Of a stretch of 64,000 bases of DNA, positions 27,361-53,193 are shown piece by piece. The notes below the pieces were generated by a model. That model did not search any database, had not been told where the DNA came from, and worked only from the letters and a program-made list of their open reading frames with translations. Each line of letters begins with the position of its first letter. Position 1 is the stretch's first letter. Both the position numbers and the translations under genes were made by a program. The stretch is from NCBI RefSeq assembly GCF_040267685.1, contig NZ_CP158367.1, forward strand, positions 2,728,001-2,792,000, written 5' to 3'. The stretch comes from Proteinivorax tanatarense. Lineage in GTDB: Bacteria > Bacillota > Proteinivoracia > Proteinivoracales > Proteinivoracaceae.

Positions 27361-28340
27361 CGGGGAATGAATTCCCCTCTACGGGGGGAGGGGATGTTTT
27401 TCTTATATGTCTCATTTAGCCCGGGAAACGGAGTTATCCATGCATATAGATTTATGCTACATACCACCACCGTAGCAGGTAATTCATTGCCTGCGGTATT
27501 GGAGTCTTTGATACAACTTCTAAAACATATCAACCTCACATATCTCTTTGCGCAACGGGGAATGAATTCCCCTCTACGGGGGGATGTTTTTCTTATCTAT
27601 CTCATTAGCCCGGAAAAGGAGTTATCCATGCATATAGATTTATCCTACATACCACCACCGTAGCAGGTAATTCATTGCCTGCGGTATTAGAGTCTTTGAT
27701 ACGACTTCTAAAACATATCAACCTCCACATATCCCTTTGCGCAACGGGGAATGAATTCCCCTCTACTACAGTGGGGATATTTTCTTATCTATCTCATTAG
27801 CCCGGAAAACGGAGTTATCCATGCATATAGATTTATCCTACATACCACCACCGTAGCAGGCAATTCATTGTCTGCGGTATTGGAGTCTTTGATACGACTT
27901 CTAAAACATATCAACCTCACATATCCCTTTGCGCAACGGGGAATGAATTCCCCTCTACGGGGGGATGTTTTTCTTATCTATCTCATTAGCCCGGGAAACG
28001 GAGTTATCCATGCATATTGACTTATGCTACATACCACCACCGTAGCAGGTAATTCATTGCCTGCGGTATTGGAGCCTTTGATACGATTTCTCAAAACATA
28101 TCAGCCTCACATATCCCTTTGCGCAACGGGGAATGAATTCCCCTCTACGGGGGGATGTTTTTCTTATCTATCTCATTAGCCCGGGAAACGGAGTTATCCA
28201 TGCATATAAGTTTATCCTGCATACCACCACCGTAGCAGGTAATTCATTGCCTGCGGTATTGGAGCCTTTAATACGACTTTCAAAACATATCAGCCTAACA
28301 GATTTCTTTGCGAAACGGAAAATGAATTCCCCTCTACAAG
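27361..28340. repeat. repeat array A: five ~190-bp units of paired GTAG hairpins
   Basis: GGGGAATGAATTCCCC hairpins start at 27362, 27557, 27746, 27938 and 28128, with a worn one at 28317 (spacing 189-195). Between them are inverted homologues CGTAGCAGGTAATTCATTGC at 27471, 27659, 27852, 28041 and 28231. On their own strand both hairpin types begin with GTAG and share the core AATTCATT. The linkers are A-specific. Short open frames across the array change phase from unit to unit, so I treat the array as non-coding. Confidence 0.9.
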
Positions 28341-40277: not shown

Positions 40278-40346
40278 TAACTCCACTCCTTTCAAAATGC
40301 TTTATCAACATTATTCCCGAAAAGACAGTGGAGAATTCAAAAAATC

Positions 40347-40705
40347 CGGGGAATGATTTCCCCTCTACGTTTAAAACATAAGCTTGGTTATGCTATTTTG
40401 GATGGACTACACTACGCCACTCGTAGCAGGTAATTCATTGCCTGCGGACTTCGCATGCTCTAATTGGTTGAATACAGCTTCTTATCATATACCGGGGAAT
40501 GAATTCCCCTCTACGTTTAAAGCTTAGGTTTGGTTATGCTATTTTGGATGGACTACACTACGTCACTCGTAGCAGGTAATTCATTGCCTGCGGACTTCGC
40601 ATGCTTTAAATGATTGGATACAGCTTCTTATCACATACCGGGGAATGAATTCTCCTCTACGTTTAAAGCTTAGGCTTGGTTATGCTATTTGGAATGGACT
40701 ACACT
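40347..40705. repeat. repeat array B: two and a half ~146-bp units of paired GTAG hairpins
   Basis: Hairpins start at 40349 (GGGGAATGATTTCCCC), 40494 and 40640 (one C to T change), spacing 145-146. Inverted partners CGTAGCAGGTAATTC are at 40422 and 40568. The third unit stops after its first linker, 15 bp before the 3' end of the unusual tRNA gene. Part of the inner linker resembles that of array C. Confidence 0.88.
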
Positions 40706-40719
40706 ATTTAATTGCCTTT

Positions 40720-40814
40720 TGGAGGAAAGTAGTTGGAATTGAACCAACTCCCACCTTAGTCAGGCAGGCCGACGGGGTTGCAACCCGCGGGGAGAACCCA
40801 TCTCCATACTTCCC
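40720..40814 (-). tRNA. selenocysteine-tRNA-like tRNA with cysteine anticodon GCA
   Basis: Folds by hand into a 95-nt cloverleaf with encoded CCA. The acceptor is 8 bp (GGGAAGTA/TACTTTCC, one G-U). The D stem is 5 bp (GGAGA/TCTCC) with a 5-nt loop TGGGT. The anticodon stem is GCGGG/CCCGT with loop TTGCAAC (U33, anticodon GCA, A37). The variable arm has 6 bp, CCTGCC/GGTGGG. The T arm is GTTGG-TTCAATT-CCAAC, with discriminator T. The 8+5 branch and long variable arm are tRNA-Sec features. GCA and U73 are cysteine identity elements. A selC*-type tRNA-Cys is the best reading. A damaged selC cannot be excluded but would not be expected to keep every helix. Confidence 0.85.
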
Positions 40815-45073: not shown

Positions 45074-46475
45074 CCGGGGAATGAATTCCCCTCTACATTT
45101 GAAACATAGGCTTAATTGTTATAATTGGGATAAGCTGTGCCACCTACCGTAGCAGGTAATTCATTGCCTGCGGATATGAACACTGTTTTGGCATCTTACT
45201 CAGTACGTACAGCACAATAACTTCTTACGGGGAATGAATTCCCCTCTACGTTTGAACATAAGCTTGGTTGTTCTAATTGGGATAAGCTGCGCCACCTACC
45301 GTAGCAGGTAATTCATTGCCTGCGGATATGAACACTGTTTTGGCATCTTACTCAGTACGTACAGCACAATAACTTCTTACGGGGAATGAATTCCCCTCTA
45401 CGTTTGAACATAAGCTTGGTTGTTCTAATTGGGATAAGCTGCGCCACCTACCGTAGCAGGTAATTCATTGCCTGCGGATATGAACACTGTTTTGGCATCT
45501 TACTCAGTACGTACAGCACAATAACTTCTTACGGGGAATGAATTCCCCTCTACGTTTGAACATAAGCTTGGTTGTTCTAATTGGGATAAGCTGCGCCACC
45601 TACCGTAGCAGGTAATTCATTGCCTGCGGATATGAACACTGTTTTGGCATCTTACTCAGTACGTACAGCACAATAACTTCTTACGGGGAATGAATTCCCC
45701 TCTACGTTTGAACATAAGCTTGGTTGTTCTAATTGGGATAAGCTGCGCCACCTACCGTAGCAGGTAATTCATTGCCTGCGGATATGAACACTGTTTTGGC
45801 ATCTTACTCAGTACGTACAGCACAATAACTTCTTACGGGGAATGAATTCCCCTCTACGTTTGAACATAAGCTTGGTTGTTCTAATTGGGATAAGCTGCGC
45901 CACCTACCGTAGCAGGTAATTCATTGCCTGGGGATATGAACACTGTTTTGGCATCTTACTCAGTACGTACAGCACAATAACTTCTTACGGGGAATGAATT
46001 CCCCTCTACGTTTGAAACATAAGCTTAGTTCTTATAACTGGGATAAGCTGCGCGCCACCTACCGTAGCAGGTAATTCATTGCCTGCGGATATGGAAACTG
46101 TTTTGGCATCTTACTCAGTACGTATAGCACAATAACTTCTTACGGGGAATGAATTCCCCTCTACGTTTGAAACATAGGCTTAGTTGTTATAATTGAAATA
46201 ACTGCGCGCCACCTACCGTAGCAGGTAATTCATTGCCTGCGGATATGAAAACTGTTTTGGCATCTTACTCAGTACGTATAGCACAATAACTTCTTGCGGG
46301 GAATGAATTCCCCTCTACATTTGAAACATAGGCTTAGTTGTTATAATTGGGATAAGCTGCGCTCCACCAACCGTAGCAGGTAATTCATTGCCTGCGGATA
46401 TGAACACTGTTTTGGCATCTTACTCAGTACGTACAGCACAATAACTTCTTGCGGGGAATGAATTCCCCTCTACAT
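45074..46475. repeat. repeat array C: nine ~152-bp units of paired GTAG hairpins
   Basis: GGGGAATGAATTCCCC hairpins start at 45076, 45229, 45381, 45533, 45685, 45837, 45989, 46144, 46298 and 46453. From 45229 to 45989 the period is exactly 152 bp and units are almost identical (one C to G change near 45930, spoiling a GCCTGCGG arm). The flanking units differ by a few bases and run 153-155 bp. Each unit also holds the inverted CGTAGCAGGTAATTCATTGC hairpin. A worn single copy lies near 46578-46597. Confidence 0.92.
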
Positions 46476-52899: not shown

Positions 52900-53193
52900 T
52901 TACTCGGCCAAGAAGTGACCAATTCTCATTTTAACCAAGCTCTTATTTTAATATAACGAAACTTTCATCCCAATTATCTGCCACATTTACTGCCTAGAAT
53001 TCCGGTAGTGCTAGACTTTCTATTGAGGTTGCAAACTCATCGGTCCTAGGCAAGCCTTGTATGTGATTTGATTTGTATTCCTCAGACCAGGATTTTGGCT
53101 AAGGCTTCCTTCAGATGCAGCTCACGCTGCCTTCCGCTAGTTGTTCCCACTACCAGGCTCACAGCGGACTTTCACCGCACATGCTGAACGCAC
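52900..53193 (-). mobile_element. 5' fragment of a group II intron
   Basis: The minus strand from 53193 begins GTGCG and continues with GGTGAAAGTCC, TGGTAGTGGGAACAACTAGC and GCATCTGAAGGAAGCC, features I associate with domain I of bacterial group II introns. No reverse transcriptase frame and no domain V/VI is visible downstream, so it is a relic. The left limit (about 52900) is approximate. The rest of 52781-53288 shows nothing else except the dispersed repeat. Confidence 0.5.

Follow-up and report, generated by a model that had tools for sequence, protein, structure and literature searches.

The window, i.e., the whole stretch of 64,000 nucleotides of the Proteinivorax tanatarense genome that was analysed, contains on its minus strand a 95-nt gene (40720–40814) encoding a tRNA with the shape of a tRNA-Sec and the anticodon and discriminator of a tRNA-Cys, with genes for MarR, ABC exporter and DcuC-type carrier proteins as its neighbours. 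ARAGORN reported a 95-nt tRNA-Cys with the anticodon gca at this locus. The coordinates assigned to the gene by a first-pass annotation were correct, and the strand, which had been left unstated there, is minus. Read from 40814 to 40720, the RNA has the sequence GGGAAGUA-U-GGAGA-UGGGU-UCUCC-CC-GCGGG-UUGCAAC-CCCGU-C-GG-CCUGCCU-GACUA-AGGUGGG-A-GUUGG-UUCAAUU-CCAAC-UACUUUCC-U-CCA.

The two sides of the acceptor stem, GGGAAGUA (40807–40814) and UACUUUCC (40724–40731), form by hand reading 8 bp including one G-U pair, and a single linker base separates them from the D arm (GGAGA-UGGGU-UCUCC, 40791–40805), composed of a 5-bp stem and a 5-nt loop. The anticodon arm (GCGGG-UUGCAAC-CCCGU, 40772–40788) comprises 5 bp, one of them G-U, and is extended by two outer C-G pairs (CC/GG, 40789–40790 with 40769–40770) formed across a bulged C at 40771. 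The GCA anticodon (Cys), placed by ARAGORN at position 34, occupies 40779–40781. The long variable arm (CCUGCCU-GACUA-AGGUGGG, 40750–40768) folds into a 7-bp stem with a 5-nt loop, and the 5-bp stem of the T arm (GUUGG-UUCAAUU-CCAAC, 40732–40748) has no 51a bulge, which gives the molecule a true 8/5 form. The discriminator base is U73 (40723), an identity element for CysRS, and it is followed by the encoded CCA end (40720–40722). The tRNA-Sec-like fold proposed previously was reproduced with respect to the 8-bp acceptor, the 5-bp T and D stems, the CCA end, the length, GCA and U73, and required a correction in the variable stem, to which 6 bp had been attributed. The minimum-energy fold (-41.4 kcal/mol, z = -2.84) contains every arm and departs from the hand reading by about one pair where the acceptor meets the T stem and around the bulged base of the anticodon stem.

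Conservation of the fold

The Rfam tRNA-Sec model (RF01852) matched the gene over its full length with 43.3 bits (E = 1.3e-7), short of the 47-bit cut-off, and the generic tRNA model (RF00005) run on the window gave no match at the tRNA locus. A covariance model trained on eight relatives, with the window sequence excluded, gave the gene 77.4 bits (genome-wide E = 1.7e-15) versus 61.3 bits for the tRNA-Sec of the same genome. Of the two covariance models suggested in the first-pass annotation, the tRNA-Sec model scored the gene below its threshold and the generic one did not report it, whereas the model of relatives gave a strong score.

In an alignment of 40 related genes, standard pairs filled 97.8% of base-pair cells, double changes were detected at 20 of the 25 pairs and the number of doubly changed cells reached 182 versus a mean of 43.2 after shuffling. 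Sliding the structure by one column reduced pairing to 59%; the alignment was fitted to the covariance model and is therefore biased towards the structure, the margin over the slid controls being nonetheless large. Double changes occurred at seven of the eight pairs of the acceptor stem (helix 1 of the alignment) and six of the seven pairs of the anticodon helix, and 100% of the cells of the D stem were paired. U73 was present in all 40 aligned genes, for some of which the search pattern demanded it. The combination of GCA and U73 was kept in all relatives examined, being imposed by the pattern for the set of named genomes and not for the 25 genomes of the phylum identified by the covariance-model search. 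The tRNA gene at 40814–40720 is genuine, intact and conserved, albeit unusual.

Relation to known tRNA classes

The selC* tRNA-Cys was reportedly described by Mukai et al. in 2017, and Vargas-Rodriguez et al. (RNA Biology, 2018; listed in PMC8124441), working on Desulfotomaculum nigrificans, are said to have named the group tRNA-ReC, apparently for 'recoding with cysteine', and to have reported programmed codon-anticodon mispairing. The tRNA from the window almost certainly belongs to the class described by Mukai and colleagues, since it displays all structural and genomic features regarded as defining. The class, already named in the first-pass annotation for this combination of a tRNA-Sec body and Cys identity, is documented as comprising tRNAs of tRNA-Sec-like structure with U73, in which the anticodon is GCA or, in some cases, UCA; members are reported from Firmicutes, Thermodesulfobacteria, Nitrospirae and Proteobacteria (PMC7609411). 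The window tRNA shares with them the tRNA-Sec-like body, the compact D arm, the long variable arm, the 8-bp acceptor, GCA and U73 (PMC7609411, PMC11415595), as well as the co-residence, here in its own genome, with separate canonical tRNA-Sec and tRNA-Cys.

The difference concerns the T stem (GUUGG/CCAAC), which is bulge-free, whereas a bulged A51a (modified 8/4 form) is given as typical of the class, striking yet dispensable (PMC7609411). Among the 40 aligned genes, 16 have a plain 5-bp T stem (the window gene included), 18 possess a 5-bp stem with one bulged base, usually C, and six were scored as 4 bp, although this last group includes Desulfacinum-type genes in which a bulged-A reading is equally possible. 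Because 16 of the 40 members lack the bulge and the review calls it dispensable, the bulge-free T stem is an ordinary variation within the selC* class, and the bulge is not regarded as a defining trait.

Other tRNAs with a similar body differ more. The Desulfobacterales selC* tRNA-Cys(UCA), encoded with selB* and cysS*, has the same body plan and Cys identity, but it carries UCA and A1:U72 and is served by dedicated SelB* and CysRS* (PMC7609411), whereas GCA, G1:C72, one SelB and one ordinary CysRS are found here. Bacterial tRNA-Sec (selC, RF01852) shares the 8/5 branch, the small-loop D arm and the long variable arm; the window tRNA has GCA instead of UCA and U73 instead of G73 and scores below the family cut-off. 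In the Aeromonas salmonicida-type tRNA-Sec, the Sec body is likewise combined with GCA, but that tRNA brings Sec to targeted UGC codons for Cys (PMC11415595), whereas U73 of the window tRNA points to charging with Cys. Allo-tRNAs, which turn up in the same literature on odd Sec-like tRNAs, have a 12-bp branch of the 8/4 or 9/3 type and Ser identity elements (PMC7609411), unlike the 13-bp 8/5 branch and Cys elements observed here.

This kind of tRNA is rare but already described, with a reported mechanism, and what is new here is of modest weight: the form without a bulge within this family, the contrast of presence and absence within one genus and the co-occurrence counts. The locus is a further bulge-free 8/5 example, located in a genome of one contig with intact Sec machinery.

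Selenocysteine and cysteine machinery in the genome

The genome consists of a single contig of 3.09 Mb, in which the selC*-type tRNA-Cys gene is present in one copy. It also encodes a separate tRNA-Sec with the UCA anticodon (76.5 bits) and a canonical tRNA-Cys(GCA) of 75 nt. ORFs for SelA, SelB, SelD and FdhD are located near the tRNA-Sec gene (SelB and SelD identified by family search, SelA and FdhD by eye). With its UGA codon read through, SelD contains the sequence VRLTQMVKAAGUGAK, and the family search confirmed the same single in-frame TGA. The genome has one full-length SelB and one CysRS gene of the ordinary type above the family cut-off; a family search for a second SelB or CysRS gene in this genome revealed none, each family giving one full match over the cut-off.

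All the components to be looked for according to the first-pass annotation, i.e., a normal tRNA-Cys, tRNA-Sec, SelA-like, SelB and SelD ORFs and a UGA-containing selD, were found. Because tRNA-Sec, canonical tRNA-Cys, CysRS, SelB and a UGA-containing SelD are all present, the genome appears to be equipped for selenoprotein synthesis, and the selC*-type tRNA-Cys is an addition to the normal tRNA-Sec and tRNA-Cys which replaces neither. The earlier idea of an intermediate in recoding between Sec and Cys is not supported, given the coexistence of a separate intact tRNA-Sec(UCA), SelB and UGA-containing SelD and the wide distribution and conservation of the class.

The tRNA-Sec of this genome (L001 1497–1593, minus strand) has only seven acceptor base pairs by hand reading, the eighth position being an apparent G-G, and the cysteine version may therefore have the longer branch of the two.

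Distribution among relatives

A covariance-model search of 399 genomes from the same phylum revealed this type of tRNA in at least 25. All loci read among the matches scoring at least 73.7 bits were of the GCA/U73 type (one second copy, in G344, lay outside this reading), and the five loci read immediately beneath them, with scores of at most 70.3 bits, were tRNA-Sec with UCA; weaker members may be placed lower in the score list, and the count of 25 is therefore a lower bound. The intact helices of the window tRNA and the number of carriers speak against the unique degenerate locus that the first-pass annotation had considered as a refutation. A separate tRNA-Sec (at least 61 bits) was present in 25 of 25 phylum carriers versus 39 of 54 non-carriers from a 61-genome set (Fisher P = 0.0019, kinship ignored). 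The survey thus provides numbers for the class, with tRNA-Sec in every one of the phylum carriers counted.

A pattern scan of named genomes, which demanded the GCA anticodon and U73, gave among the matches listed Carboxydothermus islandicus, Ammonifex, Desulfacinum, Sulfobacillus thermotolerans, Nitrospirae and Actinomycetes. A separate tRNA-Sec accompanied the gene in 20 of 22 pattern-found carriers among the matches listed; two of the 22 (Carboxydothermus islandicus and UBA3572) are identical with G132 and G364 of the phylum set, as judged from their coordinates. In the Bacillota bin WH5.bin23 (L151, 5359–5455), a tRNA-Sec-shaped gene with GCA and U73 was the sole tRNA-Sec-like match, possibly representing a lineage that keeps only the Cys version or else an incomplete bin. 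The Nitrospirae bin SZUA-77 (L083, 4293–4389, minus strand) contains a selC*-like tRNA without an intact D arm, and no tRNA-Sec over the cut-off was detected in this bin, which looks like decay after the loss of Sec use. Both of these exceptions are metagenome bins, and absent contigs could explain the lack of tRNA-Sec in either.

An association with Sec-containing SelD was considered and rejected, as an in-frame TGA was found in 25 of 25 carriers versus 38 of 39 Sec-using non-carriers and did not discriminate between them. A viral origin was also rejected: among the matches listed, the viral ones that could be parsed as tRNAs were of the 7/5 type II, a different class. The tRNAs from viral contigs L201, L240, L254, L288, L304, L307, L308 and L316 are type-II molecules with a 7/5 Ser/Leu-like body, GCA, U73 and encoded CCA, and they are another odd class of apparent tRNA-Cys.

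Proposed role of the tRNA

The conserved 8/5 fold, GCA with U73 and the co-residence with the Sec machinery were observed directly, and the delivery and recoding mechanism considered below is taken over from the D. nigrificans tRNA as described in reviews. According to one of them (PMC11415595), that tRNA is delivered by SelB, shows no interaction with EF-Tu and causes Sec UGA codons to be decoded as Cys. By analogy with this characterised relative, CysRS would charge the window tRNA with Cys, the 13-bp branch and the long variable arm would make it a cargo of SelB and not of EF-Tu, SelB and the SECIS hairpin would bring it to Sec UGA codons, and Cys would be inserted there although the third base of the codon is mismatched. 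The benefit might be that selenoprotein synthesis continues, with Cys substituting for Sec, under a shortage of selenium or Sec-tRNA. The whole chain, from charging by CysRS through delivery by SelB to the use of Cys at Sec UGA codons, possibly under selenium shortage, is considered likely. Charging with Cys, suggested in the first-pass annotation, is probable judging from the identity elements U73 and GCA, and its suggestion of special codon use fits the reading of Sec UGA with Cys through SelB by the relative (PMC11415595).

A narrower version assumes that the UGA codon of selD itself is decoded with Cys via SelB and the programmed anticodon mismatch. The selD product is needed for Sec-tRNA, so a Cys-read SelD could restart Sec synthesis after selenium loss. 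Such a safeguard is conceivable but doubtful; because UGA occurs in selD of nearly all Sec-using genomes compared, carriers or not, a selD-specific role is not preferred over a role at all Sec sites.

The anticodon GCA pairs with UGC and UGU, and ordinary Cys decoding may thus be compatible with it. A second ordinary Cys isoacceptor, carried by EF-Tu and reading normal Cys codons, would agree with the retention of GCA and U73 in all relatives examined and with the single ordinary CysRS of the genome. However, the genome already has a canonical tRNA-Cys, strong covariation in the stems accompanies the conservation of the Sec-type branch and the long variable arm, tRNA-Sec is nearly always present in carriers and the D. 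nigrificans tRNA shows no interaction with EF-Tu (PMC11415595), which makes this explanation unlikely in comparison with SelB-dependent insertion of Cys at Sec codons.

Genomic context within the family

Within the family, the tRNA is encoded in the window genome (G000), G003 and G004. A search with the covariance model of G001, which belongs to the same genus, and of G002 gave no such tRNA, the best match in each being tRNA-Sec. The matching site in G001 has the same flanks, with MarR/ABC genes on one side and the gene for the DcuC-type carrier on the other, and a 268-aa membrane-protein ORF between them, where no tRNA was found. This same-genus pair, with the tRNA present or absent at the matching site, allows the proposed fallback role to be tested. 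The tRNA gene of G003 and G004 occupies a different site, adjoined by a histidine-phosphatase-like gene and a gene for a QueT-like membrane protein (annotated by eye), and a conserved gene neighbourhood was rejected, because the genes on either side are not the same in G000 as in G003/G004.

Judged by eye, the tRNA genes of G003 and G004 are preceded by a consensus-like promoter and followed by a hairpin with a T-run. No consensus promoter was found on the minus strand for the window tRNA, and the nearest terminator-like hairpin on the same strand lies about 360 bases downstream, inside a tandem repeat; because of these two features, the case for expression is weakened but not removed. The missing promoter, like the lack of the tRNA in G001 and G002, also counts against the proposed role. 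The gene might then be a relic that was functional once in the family but in this species is no longer expressed or is decaying, which would also agree with its absence from G001 and G002. Such a fate seems quite unlikely for a tRNA that retains U73, GCA, CCA and all its helices, including the T stem, in which the G003 relative has a mismatch, and that is scored so highly by a model trained without its sequence. A non-ribosomal or regulatory RNA, e.g., one donating Cys in the modification of peptides or in cell-wall metabolism, as raised in the first-pass annotation, found no support and is very improbable, since nothing direct speaks for it except flanks (MarR, ABC exporter and DcuC-type carrier genes) that do not suggest translation, no neighbour is conserved between G000 and G003/G004, and the anticodon and its loop, less needed by such a donor, are retained.

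The window also contains a dispersed family of tandem repeats with units of 146, 152 and 189 nt and common CGGGGAATGAATTCCCCTCTACG and GTAGCAGGTAATTCATTGCCTGCGGA-like cores. Its copies are located at 40346–40706, 45075–46473 and 27361–28337 of the window and at 391–1070 of L010, with related copies elsewhere in the genome, and one array stops 13 bases from the 3' end of the tRNA. A match to the group II intron model D1-D4-3 (94.2 bits) was detected at 52954–53131 on the minus strand of the window.
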